Below, in pieces: positions 4,211 to 49,644 of a stretch of DNA of 64,000 nt. Numbering within the stretch: the stretch's first letter is position 1; every line of letters starts with the position of its first letter. Both the position numbers and the translations under genes were made by a program. Origin of the DNA: Actinocatenispora comari (GTDB lineage Bacteria > Actinomycetota > Actinomycetes > Mycobacteriales > Micromonosporaceae); the NCBI RefSeq assembly GCF_017312725.1, contig NZ_BOPO01000127.1, positions 1 to 64,000 on the forward strand, in the 5' to 3' direction. Under the pieces are notes generated by a model. The model made no database searches and was not told the DNA's origin. It worked only from the letters and a program-made list of their open reading frames with translations.

Positions 4211-7627
<3,417 letters not shown>

Positions 7628-7892
7628 GCAACGGCCGGCGCCACCAGCCGAAGCCGGAACGGGGTGTGGTTGAGCGCACCGTCGACCGCGGTGACGACGC
7701 GGTGGCCGGTCGATGCAGCCCATCCTGCCCACGGTGCGTAGCCGGAAACGGTTCGGGTTGCGCCGCCCGTACGGCTGGGGCGCGTTCTCCGGTTACCGTG
7801 ACGGGGACAACGGTCGCACGCCTCGCGCTGGTGACGACCGACGCGGGGTGCGGCGGGGTGCCTCGGGCCGGCGACCGTGGCGAGGAGGAACG

Positions 7893-8825
7893 ATGTCGAA
7901 CTACGGACCGCCCGGCGGCTACCCGGGAGCGCCGCAGGACCCGTGGCAGCAGGGTGGCGGCCAACCCGGCGGTTCCTCGCCGTACGGGCCGCCCGATCCC
8001 GCGGCGAACCCGCCCGGCCAGCCGCCGTACGGGCAGCCGAACGGCCCCGGTTACGGGGGTCAGCCGAGCGGCCCCGGTTACGGGGGTCAGCCGAGCGGCC
8101 CCGGTTACGGCGGCCAGCCGAGCGGGCCTGGGTACGGGGGTCAGCCGAGCGGGCCACCCGGGTACGGCCAGGATCCGTCCAGCGGCGCCGGCTACGGCCA
8201 GCCCAGCGGGCCGGGATACGGGCAGCCCGGTCCATACGGCCAGGATCCGTACGGGCAGACCACGCCGATGCCGCCGGGGCCGGGCGGTCCCGGCATGCCG
8301 CCCGGTGGCGGACCGCCGCCGTACGGCGGGGGTGGCGGCTGGGGGCCCGGCGGTTTCAACCAGCCGCCGAAAAAGAGCAAGGGCCCGATGATCGCGATCA
8401 TCGTGGTGGTCGCGGTGGTGCTGCTCGGGGTGGTCGGCGTCGGTGTCTGGGCGATCGCCGGGCGCGGTGGCGGCCCCGACCCGAACCCGACCCCGACCGC
8501 GCGGCCCACCAGCGCGAGCCCGTCGCCGACGTCGGAGAGCCCCAGCCCGTCCGAGTCACCGACGCCGTCGGCGACGCTGCCGGGTGGCGACGCGTACTCG
8601 GTCCAGGAGGGTCAGTGCGTCAAGAACGAGGGCACCGACTCGAAGCCGAACCTGAAGATCGTCGACTGCGCCAAGGGCACGTACAAGGTGCTGAAGAAGT
8701 ACCGCGGCACCCACGACACGGACAAGTGCAAGAACGTGGCCGGCTCGGACAGCAGCTACTACCAGAAGTTCGGCAGCGACCTGTCCAGCCTGGACTTCGT
8801 GCTCTGCCTGCAGAAGCAGGACTGA
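7893..8825 (+). CDS. LppU-like membrane protein with Tyr/Gly/Pro repeats
   Basis: 310 aa from ATG 7893 with ribosome site GAGGAGG. The N-terminal 160 residues are Pro/Gly/Tyr/Gln-rich and carry four 9-residue units of the QPSGPGYGG type. One membrane segment follows (MIAIIVVVAVVLLGVVGVG, about 167-190), then a Thr/Ser/Pro linker and a C-terminal domain of about 75 residues with four cysteines (GQCV, VDCA, DKCK, VLCL). That tail matches the LppU/SCO3897-type domain of actinobacteria. The long cytoplasmic part before a single membrane segment is common in this group. Function unknown. The next gene is a paralog. Confidence 0.85.
   Translation: MSNYGPPGGYPGAPQDPWQQGGGQPGGSSPYGPPDPAANPPGQPPYGQPNGPGYGGQPSGPGYGGQPSGPGYGGQPSGPGYGGQPSGPPGYGQDPSSGAGYGQPSGPGYGQPGPYGQDPYGQTTPMPPGPGGPGMPPGGGPPPYGGGGGWGPGGFNQPPKKSKGPMIAIIVVVAVVLLGVVGVGVWAIAGRGGGPDPNPTPTARPTSASPSPTSESPSPSESPTPSATLPGGDAYSVQEGQCVKNEGTDSKPNLKIVDCAKGTYKVLKKYRGTHDTDKCKNVAGSDSSYYQKFGSDLSSLDFVLCLQKQD
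8034..8141 (+). repeat. In-gene tandem repeat, four 27-bp units
   Basis: Four consecutive 27-bp units encode QPSGPGYGG-type nonapeptides, with a fifth degenerate unit after them. Differences between units are mostly silent, so the amino-acid pattern seems to be kept by selection. Confidence 0.9.
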
Positions 8826-8980
8826 CCGGCATCACACGCTGAAGAGCGACACCGTCACCGTCCGTCGAGCATCGTTCCCGACGGGCGGTGCGGTGTGCGT
8901 ACCGGCACCGGGGGACCTGACAGCGCCGGTTACCGTTGCTGTCCAGTTCGCGCGGACGCGGATGTAGCCGAGGAGGATCG

Positions 8981-41240: not shown

Positions 41241-41463
41241 GCCGACAGGCTGGCGCAAGACCAATCAAAGGAGGTCGCCAGGGCGAGAGCCCGGCCAGCG
41301 GTCTCCTTCCCAGGGCGGAGCGCAGTAGCCGGGTGGAGACACGGAGCGCCGCGTCGTGCCCTTCAGCGATCGCGGGCCACGCGATGGGGGTGCCGGGGGC
41401 GGAGCCCGCCGGTGCGGGGTCTGGGGCTGCGCCCCCAGAAGGCGTGGCGAGCGATGAAGGCTC

Positions 41464-41536
41464 GCGCTTTCCGCAAGCACACGTGCCGAATCGCGAGCGG
41501 GTGACGGGAATCGAACCCGCACTGTCAGCTTGGGAA
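41464..41536 (-). repeat. Left attachment site, partial tRNA-Gly copy
   Basis: 73 bases identical to 49542-49614. Bases 41496-41536 are the 3' 41 nt of the tRNA-Gly (from the anticodon loop to the discriminator); the 5' part is missing. A looser match continues left to about 41373. Confidence 0.88.
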
Positions 41537-41649: not shown

Positions 41650-42276
41650 TCAGCGCCACTTGGAAGGACGGTGGTACGTCTGGCCGGTCTTAGGGTCGGT
41701 CACGACCGCGGGGAGCAGCGAGTTGCGGATGTCGGCCTGGGCGAGGGTGAACGTCGATGCGAGCGTCCTCAACTCGTGGCTCTGGCGCCTGGGCGGGAAC
41801 GCCGCGATGACTCCGAGGTGATTGCCAAGGTTGGTTGCAACCGTGCGAGCGGTGCGTATGGCGGGGCACAGGTCGGAATCGGCGCTGATGATCAGGGCCA
41901 TGTCGGAGACGGCCTGGGCGGCGTCGGCGACGAGGGAGACCGCGATGTTGACGTCGGTCTCCTTCTCCTCGTAGCTGGTCCACGTCGCGCCGCATGATCG
42001 GCACCGCTGGTTCTTGGACTGGTACCGGCCGCGGACGATCTGGACGTCGGCGCCGTTGTGTGCTTCGAGCGCGGCGAGGTAGGCACGCTGGCGGGCCTCG
42101 GCGGGCGGATCGTCACGGACCATGGCAGTGAAGTACCGGACGGCGGTGATGCTGTCTCGTGGCCGGAGCCGTCGCACCAACGCTGGCAGGTCCAGCCAGA
42201 GGTAGCGGTGTTGGTAGCGGGCGCGCAGGCCGTGGTACAGGTTGAAGCCGTCGATGTAGGCGGTGACGGTCGCCAC
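41650..42276 (-). CDS. NYN-domain (PIN-like) nuclease
   Basis: 208 aa from GTG at 42276, behind GGAGGACCA. NYN/LabA-type fold: VTAYIDGFNLYHGLRAR (first Asp and Asn), VRYFTAMVRDDP, a middle EEKETDVNIAVSLVADAA (acidic pair) and ALIISADSDLCPAIRTA (S-D-S-D-like last Asp). A CRSCG knuckle before the EEKETD motif may hold zinc. These are metal-dependent RNases. In an island, a defence or toxin role is possible, but the family is also found in RNA turnover. Right after the left att site. Confidence 0.9.
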   Translation of the reverse strand: MATVTAYIDGFNLYHGLRARYQHRYLWLDLPALVRRLRPRDSITAVRYFTAMVRDDPPAEARQRAYLAALEAHNGADVQIVRGRYQSKNQRCRSCGATWTSYEEKETDVNIAVSLVADAAQAVSDMALIISADSDLCPAIRTARTVATNLGNHLGVIAAFPPRRQSHELRTLASTFTLAQADIRNSLLPAVVTDPKTGQTYHRPSKWR

Positions 42277-42356
42277 TGGTCCTCCGCGATGTCCTCGAAC
42301 GTCCGATTGGACAAGACGGCACTCTAGACCCTGGCAACGACACGTCGGCGGTGCGC

Positions 42357-42424
42357 TATGATTAGACCAACTCCGCTGGGGGTCTCGTACCTTCAGCCTG
42401 ACGGCCCCGCCTCGGCGGGGCCGT
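42357..42424 (+). ncRNA. Candidate small RNA: promoter -10 followed by hairpin
   Basis: A perfect TATGAT (42357-42362) is followed about 40 bases later by a 10-bp perfect stem (ACGGCCCCGC 42401-42410, complement 42415-42424), tetraloop CTCG, then CGTTGT. A transcript of about 55 nt would fit. It is divergent from the NYN gene. No coding is seen in the 42277-43075 gap otherwise. Existence of an RNA is inference. Confidence 0.35.
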
Positions 42425-43075
42425 CGTTGTATGCGGCCCCGCTCACAGATCGCAGTAGAGCGGTCGGCGAAGTTGACAGCGCCCACAGCATCCGTGCCAA
42501 GCTGGCCCTGGGCTTGGGCCGGCTTGGCGTCGATCGCCCGGGAGCACGGATCACGGTGACCGCGCAGGGCGATCGCAGGCGGTGCCCCGATTCGATCCTC
42601 TGGTCTTGGCTACCGGACAACGTGATGGGCGGCGGTTCGGCGGCGGCGCTCCGGCCCCGTAGGCGTCAGCCGAAGGGGCCGGGCCTTACCGCCGTCGGGC
42701 CGCCGCCGCGCCGCGCTCGCGCGGCGCCTTGATCATGTAGAGAACGAATCGGCAGTACAGCGACTTACAACGGACCTACGCGATTCCCAAGAGGCGTGAG
42801 GTCACGTTAAGCCACCACGGATCGTCACCGACGAGATCGGGAACAGGCATCTGGTTGGTCGGACCGTAGCCCTGCGGAGGGCTCCCACGAACCCAACATA
42901 GCGACGTGGAGCCATGACAACCAACCATAACGTGGACAACATGTCGGATAGCCGTCAGATGGTGGTGGATGGGATGTCTGCACTGTGAGAGTTAGCGTGT
43001 GCCGCCGCCGAGAAGATCGCAGATCAGACAGTTCGCCACTCAGCAATGAAGCTACCAAGCCCGCGGAGAGTCACG

Positions 43076-43603
43076 ATGGATTTAGGCTTTGGCGCCGCGC
43101 TTGCGGCAACAATTTCCCCGACGTTTACGTTTCTATATGGGCGCCTTACCGCGCTACTAGATCGGGGCAAACGAGACGCAACAGTCGAGAGCACGCCGGA
43201 GGAAATTGATACGCCCGGAGTTCTGGAGGGCCAGCTCGAACCGCTAATTGTTGACGAGGCAATGCTGTCCGAACGGTGGCACGACCTGCAAGTACTCGCC
43301 GCCACGCTCGGCAGCTATGAAAGGAATCCGGAACGGATTAGCGCAGATGATGACGACCTGATAGCAAGCCTGAATTCTTTAAGACTGGCTCTTGAAGCAA
43401 TTTACGAGCAGCGCTTCACATTCCGTGGTGAGTCGCGCGAGAGAAGCGGTACAAAGATCTCTCAGAAAGTCGACAGGATCACTGGAAGCGTAATTGGCAA
43501 GTATGGAATCGCCTCCGAAAGCGATCTAGAGGTGCGCCAGTCCTCTAATGAGGTTGGTCCCGGTGGCTCAATGATCGGCGTATGGACTGATCAGCCGCAG
43601 TAA
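43076..43603 (+). CDS. Unrecognised small protein, first gene of island operon
   Basis: 175 aa from ATG 43076, chosen for GGAGAG 7 bases upstream; ATG 43046 is in frame but lacks one. A weakly hydrophobic N-terminus (LGFGAALAATISPTFTFLYG) could anchor it in the membrane. The rest is helical and charged (SERWHDLQVLAATLGSYERN, DDDLIASLNSLRLALEAIYEQRF). Base composition and codons (many A/T third positions) are unlike the chromosome. Followed after 64 bases by the large protein. Family not recognised. Confidence 0.8.
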   Translation: MDLGFGAALAATISPTFTFLYGRLTALLDRGKRDATVESTPEEIDTPGVLEGQLEPLIVDEAMLSERWHDLQVLAATLGSYERNPERISADDDDLIASLNSLRLALEAIYEQRFTFRGESRERSGTKISQKVDRITGSVIGKYGIASESDLEVRQSSNEVGPGGSMIGVWTDQPQ

Positions 43604-43667
43604 ATGCGTTGCGATTGAAGTTTGCCTACAGGAGCCATGGGGCACGACCGCACCTTTTGGAGAAACT

Positions 43668-45926
43668 GTGGACGACGAGATTGGCCCGAATTCCCTTAAC
43701 GGCACCGCGCGATACCCTGCGGAGGCGGTCGAGTCGACACCCAATCCGCCGCCACAGCCGGTTCCAGATCCGCGTCAAGCAGGAAGATCAAGTACGTATA
43801 GTGACCCGGATAAGCGAATAGGATCTGTTTCTGAAACGTCGACCAGTAGTGGCGACCTGAGCGCTGATGCGCTGACTAATCGGTCTAGTAATACACAGCG
43901 CATAGGGGCCAATTACGGGTATGCCGCAAACGTCCTCACGATCGTTCGGCGCAGCCTTGATGAGATCTTGCTTCCAAACAGTTATGTTGAACGCAGCGTC
44001 CGCTATTTTGTAGAGCCACACGGGTTCGTCGAAGCGAAGCGGATCCTCAACGATCGCCGAGTACTTGTATTGGTGTCTGATCCGGACCGTGGGCGGCACG
44101 ATGCGGCGTTGAATGCGCTAGATTCTATGGGCGGCCTGGCGATTCGTGAAGTCAAACGTGAGCCAGGCGAGTCGGTGCGGATCACCGAGATCCCAACGCG
44201 ATCGAATGCTGGATGGATCCTCGATCTTAGGCAGGACGAGACCGTCCCTTCTTCGCTTGGACGTGACCTCGCTTCGCCAGAAACGCGCCAAACGCTAGAG
44301 GTCAGCAAATCCTATTTGATAGTCATACTCTCTCCGCGCCTCTGGAACGAATGTAGCGCAGGGGGGAATAGTCTCCAGCACTACTTGAGGCGTCCATCAG
44401 CCCTGAGTATCATCCAGCGACGCTTGAACGGACATCTCCCAGAGGATGTTATTCACCGCTGGCTGGGGGATGAGAGAATCCGTCAGCGTCTCGCGGACGC
44501 AACGCCAACTGATGCGCTTGAGTGGGTCTCGCGAATCCTAGAAGTGCAGGCCATTCCTAATTCCACGTTGACATTGCCAAAGAGTCTTGAGAGCGATCCG
44601 AACGAAGATGACTTCCAAGCCGCAAGAGTACGAACAGCGTTGGAAGCTGCATCGAACTGGCGCACTCATCTACTCGATTGGTACCGAAATAACGAGGATT
44701 GTCAGACGAGAGACTACCTCGTAGCTGCCGCCATATTGGAGTGGCACGGTGCGGGAGATATATTCACGGCTGCAGATAGGCTCAGCGCAGCGCTCAAGGG
44801 ACCGGCGCATAATTCATCCGGGCAACAGGGTCCAGGCGTCCTAGAGCTCATAGACAGAATCGGTGCCGAACATAATGGCACCTATTTAAAATTTGATAAA
44901 CTAGGATATAGGGAAGCTGTCTTAGATTATGTCTGGGCTGATCGCCCGCACCTACAGACAAACCTTCTGAAATGGATGTGCGACGAGTCATTGAGGGTGC
45001 CGGAGGACCCGGCGCTCTCTGATCGCGTGGTTGCGTATGTGCTTCGGTGGACTCTTCGTTCAAAAGATCTGTGTCATCTGAAGGAGGTCGCTTACTCGTG
45101 GTCGTCCTACCCTGAGTTGCGGTCGAGAGCTGTAGACCTCTTTACTGCCGCAGCCCTGGACAGCGAGCTGGGAAAGGCCGTTCGCGATCTTTTGTTGGAT
45201 TGGTCCAAGCCTGAGGCAGACGTCTCGGGTGACCTGCGTGCATTGACGGCTGAGATCTGCGGTGGCCATCTTGCATTGGTCTACAAGAAGATGATGCTTT
45301 TCAGGCTCGGGAACTTGGCCTCCATCGAAGATGACAGGATTTCCCAGGCGGCGCAACACAAGATTTCGTCTTTGTGGGATAACGTAAAGTTGCGTTCGGA
45401 GATTGTCTCACATGTTTTGCGATGGCTGAGCTCTAAGGACCGAACGATCGAAGCTGGCCGGTCGACATTCACGGTCCTGATGAGTATTAATGAACAGGAT
45501 ACACAGATTCCTGCTATACTTTCGTACGTCTCGACTAATCCCGAACAATTGGATGCGTTGGCTAGAGGGCTTCGCGTCGTGTTGGAATATTCTCCACTAG
45601 AAAGAGAAGTTTCTCTGGCATTGTGGTCATGGCTGACTGCCGCGACGAGAAATGTAGAAGTCCGCCAGATTTTCGAAAGCCTCGCAGTTGCGGCTAGTGC
45701 ACCGCGTGGGCCGAGTGATTACGATGCGCAAGCGCGAATTGCCTTGCTAGATACTGTGATTCTTTGGCTGCATAACTGTCCACACGAGAATCAGGCGGCT
45801 GCTGAACAAGTCCATAATACTGTAACTAAGAGGCTGGTAGCGTTTGATCCGTACAGAAACAGGCAGGACGTCACTGGGGCTTCACAAATTAGTTATCAGC
45901 AGAATGTGGTTCGGGATGGCCAGTGA
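43668..45926 (+). CDS. Large NTPase-like protein with degenerate P-loop, second gene of island operon
   Basis: 752 aa from GTG 43668 with TTGGAG upstream. Residues 1-85 are disordered (Pro/Ser). From about 105 the pattern YFVEPHGFVEAKRILNDRRVLVLVSDPDRGRHDAALNAL is like the entry to STAND-type ATPases, but the P-loop is broken (SDPDRGRHD in place of GxxxxGK[ST]). Next come WILDLRQDE and SYLIVILSPRLWNE, like Walker B and sensor strands. The rest (about 300-752) is all-helical, repeat-like and similar to HEAT/TPR solenoids (YVLRWTLRSKDLCHLKEVAYSW, VSHVLRWLSSKDRTIEAGRS). Low GC. Not matched to a named family. Confidence 0.85.
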   Translation: MDDEIGPNSLNGTARYPAEAVESTPNPPPQPVPDPRQAGRSSTYSDPDKRIGSVSETSTSSGDLSADALTNRSSNTQRIGANYGYAANVLTIVRRSLDEILLPNSYVERSVRYFVEPHGFVEAKRILNDRRVLVLVSDPDRGRHDAALNALDSMGGLAIREVKREPGESVRITEIPTRSNAGWILDLRQDETVPSSLGRDLASPETRQTLEVSKSYLIVILSPRLWNECSAGGNSLQHYLRRPSALSIIQRRLNGHLPEDVIHRWLGDERIRQRLADATPTDALEWVSRILEVQAIPNSTLTLPKSLESDPNEDDFQAARVRTALEAASNWRTHLLDWYRNNEDCQTRDYLVAAAILEWHGAGDIFTAADRLSAALKGPAHNSSGQQGPGVLELIDRIGAEHNGTYLKFDKLGYREAVLDYVWADRPHLQTNLLKWMCDESLRVPEDPALSDRVVAYVLRWTLRSKDLCHLKEVAYSWSSYPELRSRAVDLFTAAALDSELGKAVRDLLLDWSKPEADVSGDLRALTAEICGGHLALVYKKMMLFRLGNLASIEDDRISQAAQHKISSLWDNVKLRSEIVSHVLRWLSSKDRTIEAGRSTFTVLMSINEQDTQIPAILSYVSTNPEQLDALARGLRVVLEYSPLEREVSLALWSWLTAATRNVEVRQIFESLAVAASAPRGPSDYDAQARIALLDTVILWLHNCPHENQAAAEQVHNTVTKRLVAFDPYRNRQDVTGASQISYQQNVVRDGQ

Positions 45927-46648
45927 GGATCTTACCTTACTGGAGAGTCCATGATGCAATGGTGTATTCGACTACTCTACCGACGCGAATTCCTGGTGTG
46001 TCAGTAACTTGCCAGTTTCGCATTACGTGGTCATTCCGTGGACCTAAGCAGCGTCGTGATGCTGGCCGTTCGTGCGCGCGGTCTACGGTAGTCCAAGTCG
46101 CCCATAGTTTTTTAGGTCAGGAACTACATGATCTCTCGGCTATAGAAGTGACGGAGTGTCGCTTAAATGAAGTGTTAAGCCGCATTAGTGATACGGTTCA
46201 TAAGGATACACGTCTAGTCTCCGCACAGGCAAAAATCGCTCTGGACGCTAGGTCGATGGAAACATATAGCTCTTTTCAGAGCGACCTTCGGGCCCAGTAC
46301 CTTGCTGATTTGCAGCAGCGGCTGGAGATTGCGCGTCTAGATAGATTCAAGGCGCAGGTATTGAATAATGCCGGCAACTTGCTCTCGTATCGACTCATGC
46401 GTAACCCGGATCAGAGATTGACTGACGTAAAGAGCTCTGAGGTAAACGACTTCCTTGAAAAGCTTTCCGAGCATGACTCGTCGCTCTTCTGGGTTCGAAT
46501 CGCCAAAATCCTAGAAAGTCTGTTGAAGAACCTAACTGCTGGTCAGCGTAACGATCTTCTTCAGACGCTAAGCTTCTTTGCTCGGCGGTATGGAGGGTAC
46601 GAGGAAGGCGCTGAAGTGGAGAGGCTGAAGCGAGAGTTTCTAGATTAG
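45923..46648 (+). CDS. SPFH-like coiled protein, third gene of island operon
   Basis: 241 aa from GTG 45923, overlapping the previous stop (GTGA), so it is translationally coupled. A beta-type start (VHDAMVYSTTLPTRIPGVSVTCQFRITW) is followed by long helices (VQVAHSFLGQELHDLSAIEV, then DARSMETYSSFQSDLRAQYLADLQQRLEIARLDR). That order resembles the SPFH/band-7 fold, where the beta domain lies on a membrane and the helices form coiled coils. No membrane segment is visible. Recognition is tentative. Confidence 0.8.
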   Translation: MRILPYWRVHDAMVYSTTLPTRIPGVSVTCQFRITWSFRGPKQRRDAGRSCARSTVVQVAHSFLGQELHDLSAIEVTECRLNEVLSRISDTVHKDTRLVSAQAKIALDARSMETYSSFQSDLRAQYLADLQQRLEIARLDRFKAQVLNNAGNLLSYRLMRNPDQRLTDVKSSEVNDFLEKLSEHDSSLFWVRIAKILESLLKNLTAGQRNDLLQTLSFFARRYGGYEEGAEVERLKREFLD

Positions 46649-46663
46649 CGGATCTGGCTCGAC

Positions 46664-47140
46664 TCACTCTGCGGGAAGGCTCTGGCCATTTTCGAGATAG
46701 GCGAATTTTTCTTCCATGGCGGCCGAGTGGGCGGTCTGTAGCCGCTGCGATAGCCTCGGTATTGTTAGTTCGGGTACCTCAAGAAGGTTCACATATCGGT
46801 AATCAGAGAGTTCATCGGCTTGGAGCTTGATGAATTTGTGCTGTTCCGGTGTTAGGTAGCCGCCGTTGAAGATGAAGAGGATTTTGTCGCCATCTCGCTT
46901 CGAGGGGGCCCAGTCGGCGACGAGGAGGCGGCCGATGGTGGGGCGGATGCCGAGTTCTTCTTCGACTTCGCGTACGCAGGCTTCGTAGGGGGTCTCGCCG
47001 GGCTCAACGTAGCCGCCTGGGATGTCCCAGTAGTCCTTGTAGGTGGGGCGCACCATCATGATGCGGCCCTCGGCGTCGGTGAAGAGGGCTCCGGCTGCTG
47101 CCGCTGCGCGGGTGGGGTTGTGCGGTCCGGGTGTCGTCAC
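46664..47140 (-). CDS. Nudix hydrolase (island)
   Basis: 158 aa from GTG at 47140. Nudix box GGYVEPGETPYEACVREVEEELGI (key G, E, REVEEELG). AAAGALFTDAEGRIMMVRPTYKDYWDIP precedes it. The downstream NGGYLTPEQHKFIKLQADELSDYRYVNL matches the branch found beside XRE-TPR regulators in actinomycetes. It starts 19 bases after the stop of the upstream regulator, so both are one operon. Substrate unknown. Confidence 0.92.
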   Translation of the reverse strand: MTTPGPHNPTRAAAAAGALFTDAEGRIMMVRPTYKDYWDIPGGYVEPGETPYEACVREVEEELGIRPTIGRLLVADWAPSKRDGDKILFIFNGGYLTPEQHKFIKLQADELSDYRYVNLLEVPELTIPRLSQRLQTAHSAAMEEKFAYLENGQSLPAE

Positions 47141-47159
47141 GTGGTCGAGGGTATGCGGG

Positions 47160-48383
47160 CTATTCGGCGACCTGCATCCGGCGGGCGAGGCCGGTGAGTT
47201 GGTGGCTCGGTGTGCCTCGGCTGCGGCGTACCCACGTGCGGACCAGGTTGCGGCTGGCGGCGTGGTAGCGGATCTGCTCGGGGGCGAACTGCTCGGCGTT
47301 GAGTAGCGCGGCCATGGCGTCGTCGGTGCGGTTCCACGCGTTGTACGCGCGAGCGGTCTCGATGGCGTGCCGTGCGCGGCGCTCGGCCGGGAGGCTGGAC
47401 GTGTCGACTCCCGGGGCAAGGTCCATGGCCACCTGTACGTCGCCGAGTTCGAGTGCGGCCTGCACACGGTGAATGGCGACGTTGGTGGGACCGAACGCGG
47501 TCCAGAGGTGGTTGGCGTCTTGGCCGATGCGGCGGGCTGCCGAGTCTGCTTCGGTGAGGAAGGTCTGCGCCGCGGCTCGGTTGTCGCTGCGGGAGGCGGC
47601 GACTGATCCAGTGAGGAACAGGGTTCCGTACACCGACAGGTAGGTCGGGGTGGCCTTGCTGAGGCCGGGTTCGAGGAAGTTGGCGGCGTCTTCGACCAGG
47701 CGGACGGCGTCGGCGTAGCGGCCGGTGGCGAGCAGCGTGTGCGTGAGCGATCGGAACAGGGAGCCGAGTACGACGGGGTTGCCGGCGTCCTGGGCGAGGT
47801 GGAAGCCGCGTTCGGCGGAGATCCATGCGAGGTCGGTTTCGCCGAGCTTGGTTAACAGGGTCGCGGCGGCCTGGTAGGTGAGGGCGAGCGCCTGGCGGGC
47901 CTGGTCGCGGTCGTCGCCGGTCGAATTGCGTACCGCGGTCTGCGCGTCGGACAGCACGGCCGGCAGGCGGTTGACGACGTACCCGAACTGCGACTCCTGG
48001 TAAGCGGTCCACAGGTCGTCGACGCTGGACTTCAACACCGGTAGCGCAACCGGCTCGTCCTCGGCGGTCGACAGGAACGGGGACAGCTGGCGGTAGTCGA
48101 GCAGCGCCTCGCGCAGTGCGGGGACGGTGCGGGTGCCGCTGTCCGGGGACCACTGCATCATCGTCGGCTCGCCGAGCAGATCGCCGACGCTCACGTCCAG
48201 GCAGTCGGCAAGCGACCGCAGTACCGAGAGCCGGTCGAGGTGGATCTTGTTGTTCTCGACCTTGCTCAGCCAGTCCTCGGTACGGCCGACGAGACCGGCC
48301 AGCACGCCCTGGGACATGCCGCGACGGCGGCGCTTCCACGCGATGCGCTCGCCGATTGTCAACGTGTCTGGCGCGTCCGGCAC
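47160..48383 (-). CDS. XRE regulator with TPR-like C-terminus (island)
   Basis: 407 aa from GTG at 48383, with GGTGGAG upstream. N-terminal XRE helix-turn-helix: LTIGERIAWKRRRRGMSQGVLAGLVGRTEDWLSKVENNKIHLDRLSVLRSLADCL. The remaining 330 residues are helical repeats of TPR style (ARQALALTYQAAATLLTKLG, DLAWISAERGFHLAQDAGNP, RYADAVRLVEDAANFLEPG). This class usually senses a peptide or small ligand. A 7-5-7 inverted repeat (CCCGGAA/TTCCGGG, 48418-48436) in its promoter region is a likely operator shared with the divergent zinc-ribbon gene. Confidence 0.9.
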   Translation of the reverse strand: MPDAPDTLTIGERIAWKRRRRGMSQGVLAGLVGRTEDWLSKVENNKIHLDRLSVLRSLADCLDVSVGDLLGEPTMMQWSPDSGTRTVPALREALLDYRQLSPFLSTAEDEPVALPVLKSSVDDLWTAYQESQFGYVVNRLPAVLSDAQTAVRNSTGDDRDQARQALALTYQAAATLLTKLGETDLAWISAERGFHLAQDAGNPVVLGSLFRSLTHTLLATGRYADAVRLVEDAANFLEPGLSKATPTYLSVYGTLFLTGSVAASRSDNRAAAQTFLTEADSAARRIGQDANHLWTAFGPTNVAIHRVQAALELGDVQVAMDLAPGVDTSSLPAERRARHAIETARAYNAWNRTDDAMAALLNAEQFAPEQIRYHAASRNLVRTWVRRSRGTPSHQLTGLARRMQVAE

Positions 48384-48417
48384 GCTCCACCGTCCCGCAA
48401 GGCTGTCCGGCAACGAC

Positions 48418-48436
48418 CCCGGAAAAGTATTCCGGG
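48418..48436. promoter_or_regulatory. CCCGGAA-N5-TTCCGGG operator between divergent genes
   Basis: Perfect inverted repeat (7-bp arms, 5-base spacer AAGTA), 35 bases from the XRE start and 33 bases from the ATG of the small zinc-ribbon gene. Location and symmetry suggest binding by the XRE-TPR protein. Confidence 0.6.
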
Positions 48437-48468
48437 TTGTTCCTGCACAGTGACCATACGTTGCCGCT

Positions 48469-48648
48469 ATGACCGAATCCAATGCCTCACGCGGTACCTG
48501 CCAGTCCTGTGGCGGTAGGGGCTGGAAGTACGAACGCCCGATGCGGGCCGTGGTCACCGACCGGCTCGGCTCCGAGCAAGCTTCGACGTGGGCGAAGCGC
48601 CCGTGCGCCGTCTGCAACGGGACCGGCTCGGCGACGGACGCGCGATGA
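48469..48648 (+). CDS. 59-residue zinc-ribbon peptide (island)
   Basis: From ATG 48469 to TGA 48648. Two knuckles, CQSCGGRG and CAVCNGTG, follow the CxxCxGxG pattern of DnaJ-type zinc fingers and are 28 residues apart, with WKYERPMRAVV between. ATG of the next gene overlaps its stop (ATGA). A peptide of this type could bind zinc or act as an adaptor. Divergent from the XRE-TPR gene. Confidence 0.75.
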   Translation: MTESNASRGTCQSCGGRGWKYERPMRAVVTDRLGSEQASTWAKRPCAVCNGTGSATDAR

Positions 48649-48947: not shown

Positions 48948-49541
48948 CATGAGGCTCCCGGCCGGCGGCTCATCAGCAGCGGTCATCGCCGACCGGGTAC
49001 GGGGCAGGACGGGCGCGGCGACACAGCCCTGTCGTACCCAGGGCGCCGAGGGTGCCCCGCGTCCGTCCTGCTCCCGTGACAAGACCGGCACCGGGCCGGG
49101 CGCCGGCATCCCCCGTACGCCACTCCCCTGGCGTACCCAAGCCCGCCCGCCCGGTGCCATCCAACGCCAGGAGACACGGATGGCAGCGCCCGTCGCCTCA
49201 TTCGTCGCCGTTCGCGGTCAGCGGTCTACCTGAGCCACAAGGCATCCGCGCGGATCGGTGGCTGACCAAGGCGATTACCGATCTCGAAGGAGCCGGGTTA
49301 TCCGCGCATGGGCCAGTCGGGGCCACACCGTGATCACCCGCCGACGAGTCCTGTCACGTCCGGCGAGGCGAGACGGTCACAGCCTCGGACGGGTTTGTGA
49401 CGACGACGGATGGTGCCACGAAGCCACGGCGTTGTGTCTGTGCCCGATGGCGGGCCACCTGCCGGGGTGTCGGGGGCGGAGCCCGCCGGTGCGGGGTCTG
49501 GGGGCTGCGCCCCCAGGAGGTGTGGCGAGCGATGAAGGCTT

Positions 49542-49614
49542 GCGCTTTCCGCAAGCACACGTGCCGAATCGCGAGCGGGTGACGGGAATCGAACCCGCAC
49601 TGTCAGCTTGGGAA
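49542..49614 (-). repeat. Right attachment site, within intact tRNA-Gly
   Basis: 73 bases identical to 41464-41536; the part 49574-49614 is the 3' portion of the intact tRNA. The homology extends left, imperfectly, to about 49451, including a GGGGGCTGCGCCCCC hairpin downstream of the tRNA. Confidence 0.88.
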
Positions 49615-49644
49615 GCTGAAGTTCTGCCATTGAACTACACCCGC
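49574..49644 (-). tRNA. tRNA-Gly (anticodon CCC)
   Basis: 71 nt without CCA. Acceptor GCGGGTG pairs with CACCCGC; the D-arm is AGTTCAATGGCAGAACT, the anticodon arm TCAGC-TTCCCAA-GCTGA (loop position 33 is T, anticodon CCC), and the T-arm GCGGG-TTCGATT-CCCGT. CCC reads GGG glycine codons. The gene serves as the attachment site for the island at 41464-49614. Confidence 0.95.

Follow-up and report, generated by a model that had tools for sequence, protein, structure and literature searches.

Three tightly packed genes without recognisable relatives in the family databases raise the question of what they do together, and whether they form a system at all. They lie at positions 43076-46648 of a 64,000-nucleotide stretch of Actinocatenispora comari DNA (NCBI RefSeq assembly GCF_017312725.1, contig NZ_BOPO01000127.1, positions 1 to 64,000 of the forward strand), which we call the window. 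Gene 1 (43076-43603), gene 2 (43668-45926) and gene 3 (45923-46648) are all on the forward strand; the open reading frame scan places 64 nucleotides between the first two and a 4-base GTGA overlap between the last two, which bears out the compact order described in an earlier note made from the sequence alone. The frame of gene 1 is open from 43046, where an alternative ATG lies, and we preferred the start at 43076 because its ATG is preceded by CGGAGAG; GGAG lies upstream of the GTG start of gene 2. Pfam, PADLOC, NCBIfam and PHROGs gave no meaningful match for any of the three proteins, and no description of this operon turned up in the literature searched, though one may still exist. We read the trio as a signalosome resembling those of nucleotide-binding leucine-rich repeat (NLR) proteins, with a swappable effector and carried on a tRNA-anchored island, a reading to which we give an even chance.

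A constant gene pair and its exchangeable partner

Among 300 genomes of the family, protein searches found relatives of gene 2 in 63, its own included. An alignment search of the phylum with a cut-off of E <= 1e-3 had matches in 24 of 396 genomes, again counting its own, and many of these matches are near 1e-4. One congener (G012) has two distant relatives of gene 2 elsewhere in its genome, at 23-24% identity. A tblastn search with gene 2 gave three plasmid records and no phage relatives; pattern scans found no relatives in genome contigs (with gene 2 and gene 3) or in viral contigs (with three gene 2 relatives). From 40 gene neighbourhoods (L031-L070), 20 more and the window itself, we obtained 49 loci with a gene 2. 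The gene 3 profile matched in 42 of them, directly downstream on the same strand and in many cases with a 4-base overlap; it found nothing in L064, L069 and L132-L136. The same order recurs among eight named plasmid loci that had no part in building the profiles: gene 2 is matched in six, gene 3 accompanies it in five of these, and all six have a cyclase-family gene upstream. All three genes occur together in six other genomes, and we therefore regard the trio as more than a chance neighbourhood; the conserved co-occurrence on which the earlier note had made its proposal depend is present. Gene order is conserved among these loci, and this comparison identifies genes 2 and 3 as the constant core and gene 1 as one of several exchangeable partners. 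In one of the plasmid loci, from Streptomyces sp. NBC_00055 (L186, 5762-9265), the gene 2 relative is interrupted by an IS701-family transposase.

The position upstream of gene 2 is occupied by different genes in different loci. It holds a cyclase-like gene in 34 of the 49, a gene of the gene 1 type in seven (the window, L031, L032, L067, L070, L117 and L127), another small protein in five (L061, L062, L064, L065 and L068) and a Mrr-type restriction endonuclease-like protein in one (L069, 7132-9847 on the reverse strand; Pfam E 1.4e-5). Two loci are left without assignment: L060, which ends at a contig edge, and L131, where the small-protein match is on the opposite strand at a distance of 2.5 kb and was not counted. 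The most frequent partners carry, in the alignment, VDxxGF, GDG and HxGP motifs, which we take to be those of class III cyclase-like proteins; we call them cyclase-like on the basis of these motifs, their context and a non-significant match in PDB. Presence of Crp-like, PycTM-like and cyclase-like genes was scored with profiles that each started from a single locus. They found a Crp-like gene in 32 of the 34 cyclase loci and a PycTM-like gene in 13 (E 1e-4; 14 at 1e-3), and the 15 non-cyclase gene 2 loci gave no same-strand Crp-like match. Pfam recognises both neighbours in one cyclase locus (PF00027, 2.3e-18, for the Crp-like protein; PF18967, 7.3e-11, for the PycTM-like one), and the NCBI annotation of two named plasmid records lists a 'Pycsar system effector family protein' and 'Crp/Fnr' beside the unnamed cyclase. 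In one plasmid locus (L187, 4950-10546) the gene after a cyclase of this family encodes a receptor-like protein with TPR repeats, and a Pycsar effector and a Crp gene adjoin them; the cyclase and the N-terminal end of this TPR-type receptor share, by eye, another matching stretch.

Matching tails and the tail module of gene 1

At the level of the family, the upstream protein and gene 2 of the same locus match each other in their tails. We compared the C-terminal 60 residues of the upstream protein with the 80 residues preceding the gene 2 domain, within and between loci. The sample comprised 36 of the 41 loci made up of the window and L031-L070, grouped into 21 clusters at 45% identity with one representative each; left out were L043 (broken cyclase frame), L064 (partner not yet identified) and L055, L057 and L060 (gene 2 split or cut). 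L117, L127 and L131-L136 lay outside the main test, and L117 and L127 entered the subset of gene-1-type loci. The own-locus score was 1029, compared with 596 +- 42 (standard deviation) after permutation, and none of 20,000 permutations reached it (n=21). The own partner ranked first in 13 of the 21 representatives. The signal is present in both subsets, non-cyclase (n=10; 0 of 20,000, or 1 of 20,000 with longer stretches) and cyclase (n=11; 0 of 20,000), and absent from three of the four controls, those made with the body of the upstream protein (15,895 of 20,000), the interior of gene 2 (6,109) and the N-terminal end of gene 3 (3,367). The six named plasmid pairs gave a similar result, with an own score of 291 against a mean of 202; counting the true arrangement itself, 4 of 720 permutations reach that score. 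L184, L185 and L186 score highest with their own partner and L188 does not; in L187 and L189, which offer no landmark, the N-tail was cut at the default place, which misplaces the visible match of L187 and makes L189 unreliable, and L190 and L191 were excluded. The matched stretches are often short (about 12-25 residues), lie at the ends of linker-like sequence and have little in common across distant loci.

Gene 1 encodes a small putative effector with an N-terminal hydrophobic stretch (about 43082-43138), a middle part that looks helical by eye and a C-terminal tail of two pseudo-repeats, R1 (ISQKVDRITGSVIGKYG, 43457-43507) and R2 (VRQSSNEVGPGGSMIGVWT, 43532-43588), both read on the forward strand. 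The repeats are regular, of about 20 residues each, with conserved glycines. Relatives of gene 1 are present in 19 of 354 family genomes, its own included, two of them recognised by the tail only; apart from the seven that stand beside gene 2, others adjoin proteins with AAA_16/NPHP3_N NTPase domains, a part of which also have WD40 or TPR repeats (L122, L124-L126, L128). When the same 354 genomes were searched with the tail only, 23 had matches, its own included, among them the L130 pair (G175) and one more receptor-side copy beside a tailed gene (G334). In L129 and L130 the tail is borne by proteins with stronger hydrophobic segments (2.3-2.4). The tail profile also matched a cyclase-family protein (L191, 5.7e-7) and the interiors of the NTPases adjoining it (0.0021) and in L130 (4.9e-6). 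These two receptor copies, at residues 109-169, consist of two repeats each and lie within the NTPase domain, not at the N-terminus. Weak matches at similar NTPase positions in L124, L125, L126 and L128 are singly non-significant, and the NTPase of L122 has none at that position, its weak match lying elsewhere. Because the same tail occurs on a cyclase, on proteins with hydrophobic segments and in NTPases, it looks like a transferable coupling module with changing heads. The L191 locus (4839-8887) unites both sides: the tailed cyclase-family protein adjoins an NPHP3_N/NACHT NTPase that holds two copies of the repeat in its NTPase domain.

The receptor candidate, its proposed mode of action and the alternatives

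The alignment and weak profile matches suggest that gene 2 encodes a disordered-looking N-tail, a domain with an altered P-loop and a long helical-repeat region. The N-tail carries the motif NTQRIGANYGYAANVLTIV (residues 75-93, 43890-43946), in the place of the putative coupling site of the relatives, and keeps the family residues N82 (29 of 38 aligned members) and G84 (33 of 38). The altered Walker A, LVSDPDRGRHDA (residues 135-146, 44070-44105), includes a glycine, G142, that is invariant in all 38 members; the position of the Walker-A lysine is taken by arginine in 29 of them, the window protein among these, by lysine in three and by another residue in six. The earlier note had proposed a protein of the signal transduction ATPases with numerous domains (STAND) type with a lost P-loop and a helical solenoid. 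A STAND-like protein with an altered site and helical repeats is supported, and the unusual P-loop proves to be a property of the family and not peculiar to the window protein, although the window form, SDPDRGR, is further altered than that of most relatives (forms such as GGPGTGR). No clear acidic Walker B was seen in the alignment, the Pfam scan gave no NTPase family match in the window protein, and its P-loop is not of the ordinary NB-ARC/NACHT type. AAA_16, nSTAND3 and HEAT each matched weakly in one or two of 21 members; for nSTAND3 (PF20720) this was a single member at 9e-5, the window protein giving no match. A genome search with the nSTAND3 family matched 14 of 14 control genomes, seven of them over the cut-off, and that search was not used as evidence. 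The structure model (predicted local distance difference test, pLDDT, 40) has, at low confidence, an unstructured N-tail, a short part made of strands and helices, and an extended series of helices. We therefore treat gene 2 as a candidate STAND-like receptor with an altered nucleotide site.

Gene 3, the constant partner, has no family match, and its low-confidence model places strands in the N-terminal part and helices in the C-terminal part. The earlier note had called it SPFH-like, an identity that we rejected: none of 20 members matched Band_7 (PF01145), and a profile-profile comparison gave a probability of 0.5%, in what is a weak test since the 11 Band_7 sequences used are closely similar. 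The register of the alignment is plausible and non-significant.

As a signalosome, the trio might work as follows. Gene 2, probably in complex with gene 3, would recognise an invader or a cue of damage and multimerise. Once clustered, its N-tails would serve as a template or gathering point for the C-terminal tail of gene 1, and the head of gene 1, with its hydrophobic stretch, would attack the membrane or otherwise stop growth. In most of the relatives examined the same receptor pair would act with a class III cyclase-like protein. The Crp-like protein would read the cyclic nucleotide made by this enzyme, and in a minority of these loci a Pycsar-type membrane protein would read it as well. 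The role would probably be directed against invaders, and the phage or stress sensing proposed in the earlier note may be part of it. For the window operon we infer the coupling of tails from the relatives only, because the match between its own two tails is weak.

Several results weigh against this account. The tail of gene 1 and the N-tail of gene 2 in the window score 26, a non-significant match that ranks third of 21; a longer tail profile finds nothing in the window N-tail, and the own-pair excess across the seven gene-1-type loci is marginal (651 of 20,000). With a leave-one-out repeat profile the best site falls in the gene 2 N-tail in three of these seven, the window not among them (shuffling p of 0.03 in L070, 0.19 in L067 and 0.59 in L127), and in L031 it falls inside the gene 2 domain. 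The last 60 residues of gene 3, too, show a slight own-locus excess (170 of 20,000), and the gene 3 tail may be another carrier of such a motif. The membrane anchoring that the earlier note suggested for gene 1 is borderline: the N-terminal hydrophobic stretch is there, and its best 19-residue hydropathy, 1.31, is under the usual transmembrane threshold. None of 19 cyclase-like members was matched by Pfam, and the four PDB matches listed, all class III cyclases, are non-significant (E 0.07 and worse). The structure models of genes 2 and 3 (pLDDT 40 and 42) are unusable, and PADLOC 2.0 had no significant match in the trio, its best being LmuB for gene 3 at chance level (E 0.025).

The strongest alternative concerns the nature of the tails, which may be small folded homotypic domains like the effector-associated domains (EADs) instead of amyloid-like stretches. 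The logic of a receptor with swappable effectors would be the same, with docking of beta-solenoids or domains as the contact. The two glycine-bearing repeats of the gene 1 tails speak for this, as does the placement of the L130 and L191 receptor copies inside the NTPase domain, and EADs couple by homotypic pairs in the available sections of Kaur et al. (PMC7159879, PMC8195603); many of the matched stretches, however, are short, terminal and linker-like and share little across distant loci, and we consider the folded form a serious, if somewhat unlikely, contender. A regulatory or stress-signalling complex of a housekeeping kind would also account for the Crp-like regulator in nearly all the cyclase loci, which could mean transcriptional signalling. 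Against it stand the patchy distribution of gene 2, its low GC content and its tRNA-anchored site, empty of the trio in all three congeners, as well as the exchange of the output gene, whose forms include a nuclease of the Mrr type and PycTM-type proteins. We favour defence over housekeeping signalling because the outputs are exchanged between cyclase, small protein and nuclease, because PycTM-like genes are neighbours, and because the distribution is patchy and the setting an island; a housekeeping role seems unlikely to us.

The weak match of the tails in the window and the extent to which its P-loop has changed would also fit a decayed remnant, in which both were lost since the trio no longer works. 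Yet none of the three frames is interrupted, their start sites are plausible and the operon is tight, and the Walker-A lysine is missing from 35 of 38 members anyway, which makes decay improbable. More improbable still is a role for gene 1 as inhibitor or antitoxin-like partner instead of effector: its small size and first place in the operon would suit such a role, but cyclases and a nuclease-like protein hold that place elsewhere, and its tail is also borne by a cyclase and by proteins whose hydrophobic segment is strong. The signalosome reading can also be taken further. The pair of genes 2 and 3 might represent prokaryotic immune receptors of a class of their own, in which two proteins make up a STAND-like sensor with an altered P-loop that serves as a universal socket for exchangeable effectors, where Pycsar-type cyclases, membrane-active proteins and nucleases would be switched by prion-like templating of tails; we put this forward tentatively, as short of an even chance.

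Among known systems, the best reading is that the trio works like the BELL-NLR pairs joined by bacterial amyloid signalling sequences (BASS; PMC7889193, PMC8086366) and like EAD coupling (PMC7159879, PMC8195603), as far as the available sections of these papers describe them. In the sections available of PMC7889193, PMC8086366 and PMC12261475, a BASS signalosome consists of a BELL-type effector and an NLR, and the effectors named are BELL, CHAT and TIR, not cyclases; the word 'cyclase' does not occur in the main text of the three. The trio resembles these pairs in the adjacency of effector and NLR-like genes in an actinomycete, in a small effector with an N-terminal hydrophobic stretch and a repeated motif on the effector side, and in the ordinary WD40/TPR NLR-type proteins that adjoin relatives of gene 1. 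A short stretch shared between the effector C-terminus and the receptor N-terminus is a likeness at the family level, the window pair being weak. It differs in the altered P-loop of gene 2, in the extra constant partner gene 3 and in the cyclase partner of 34 of 49 loci. We do not file it as BASS, because of the altered P-loop of the receptor and the weak match between the motifs of the window pair. The EAD-coupled and nSTAND/iSTAND conflict systems of multicellular bacteria, in the available sections of Kaur et al. 2020 and 2021 (PMC7159879, PMC8195603), couple exchangeable effectors, cyclic nucleotide monophosphate cyclases included, homotypically to an NTPase core. The trio would share this plan of exchangeable effectors on an NTPase core, but nSTAND3 matches only one of 21 gene 2 members and the putative coupling goes through short tails. 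Genes for vWA-MoxR, VMAP or EACC1 did not come up, in work that included no search aimed at them.

Pycsar systems combine a pyrimidine cyclase gene with a PycTM or PycTIR effector in one operon. The relatives resemble them in the class III cyclase-like motifs and in the 13 of 34 cyclase loci with a PycTM-like gene, and differ in having the receptor pair and, as a rule, a Crp-like protein in addition; the one cyclase that was submitted to PADLOC went unrecognised. In the window, profiles found no relative of the cyclase family or of PycTM, and the trio has no PycTM or PycTIR; we do not file it as Pycsar because it is without a cyclase. To our knowledge, how Pycsar-like cyclases are activated and how NLR-like proteins pass their signal to varied effectors are open questions. 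With a fixed receptor pair, a changing partner and locus-specific tails, both become directly testable, and the tails offer a way to find new effectors. HET-S signalling in fungi and RHIM signalling in animals would be the counterparts of this bacterial arrangement. If the universal-socket reading is true, a single machine would drive both cyclic-nucleotide defence and amyloid NLR signalling.

The tRNA-Gly site and its other genes

The foreign composition and island location given in the earlier note were both confirmed. The guanine-plus-cytosine (GC) content of the 43-47 kb region is 0.52-0.55, compared with about 0.73 in the surroundings, and the variable site that holds the trio adjoins a tRNA-Gly(ccc) gene found by the tRNA scan (49573-49644, reverse strand). 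Two direct repeats of 114 nucleotides (97%) and 40 nucleotides (98%), spaced by 8078 and 8077 nucleotides, flank 8.08 kb. The left copy (41387-41536) contains 42 nucleotides identical to the 3' end of the tRNA-Gly and is a candidate attachment site; the right copy (49464-49614) overlaps the tRNA gene itself. The trio is absent from this site in three of three congeners, that is, other genomes of the genus. From the left-flank sequence to the end of the tRNA there are 94 nucleotides in G050 and 163 in G012, and G070 has only short pieces of the flank, in rearranged order, beside the tRNA. Because of the reordered flank of G070 we rejected a plain 8-kb insertion and limit our claim to a tRNA-anchored variable site without the trio in these congeners.

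The island also contains a NYN-domain gene (41650-42486, reverse strand; Pfam E 8.8e-8; PADLOC HEC-09, 226 bits; phrog_7929), which the earlier note had placed beside the trio and which indeed lies there. As a component of the system it was rejected, no relative being found in the 60 other gene neighbourhoods scanned; it is a candidate for a separate defence gene on the same island.

No integrase was noticed in the repeat-flanked stretch, though no dedicated search was made. The stretch does hold, on the reverse strand at 46664-48617, a NUDIX hydrolase gene and a gene for an XRE-type helix-turn-helix protein that is weakly NsdA-family-like. In the congener G050, the 42-nucleotide end of the tRNA-Gly has a second exact copy (C1, 1059258-1059299) some 15 kb away from the tRNA, which suggests another element at this site.

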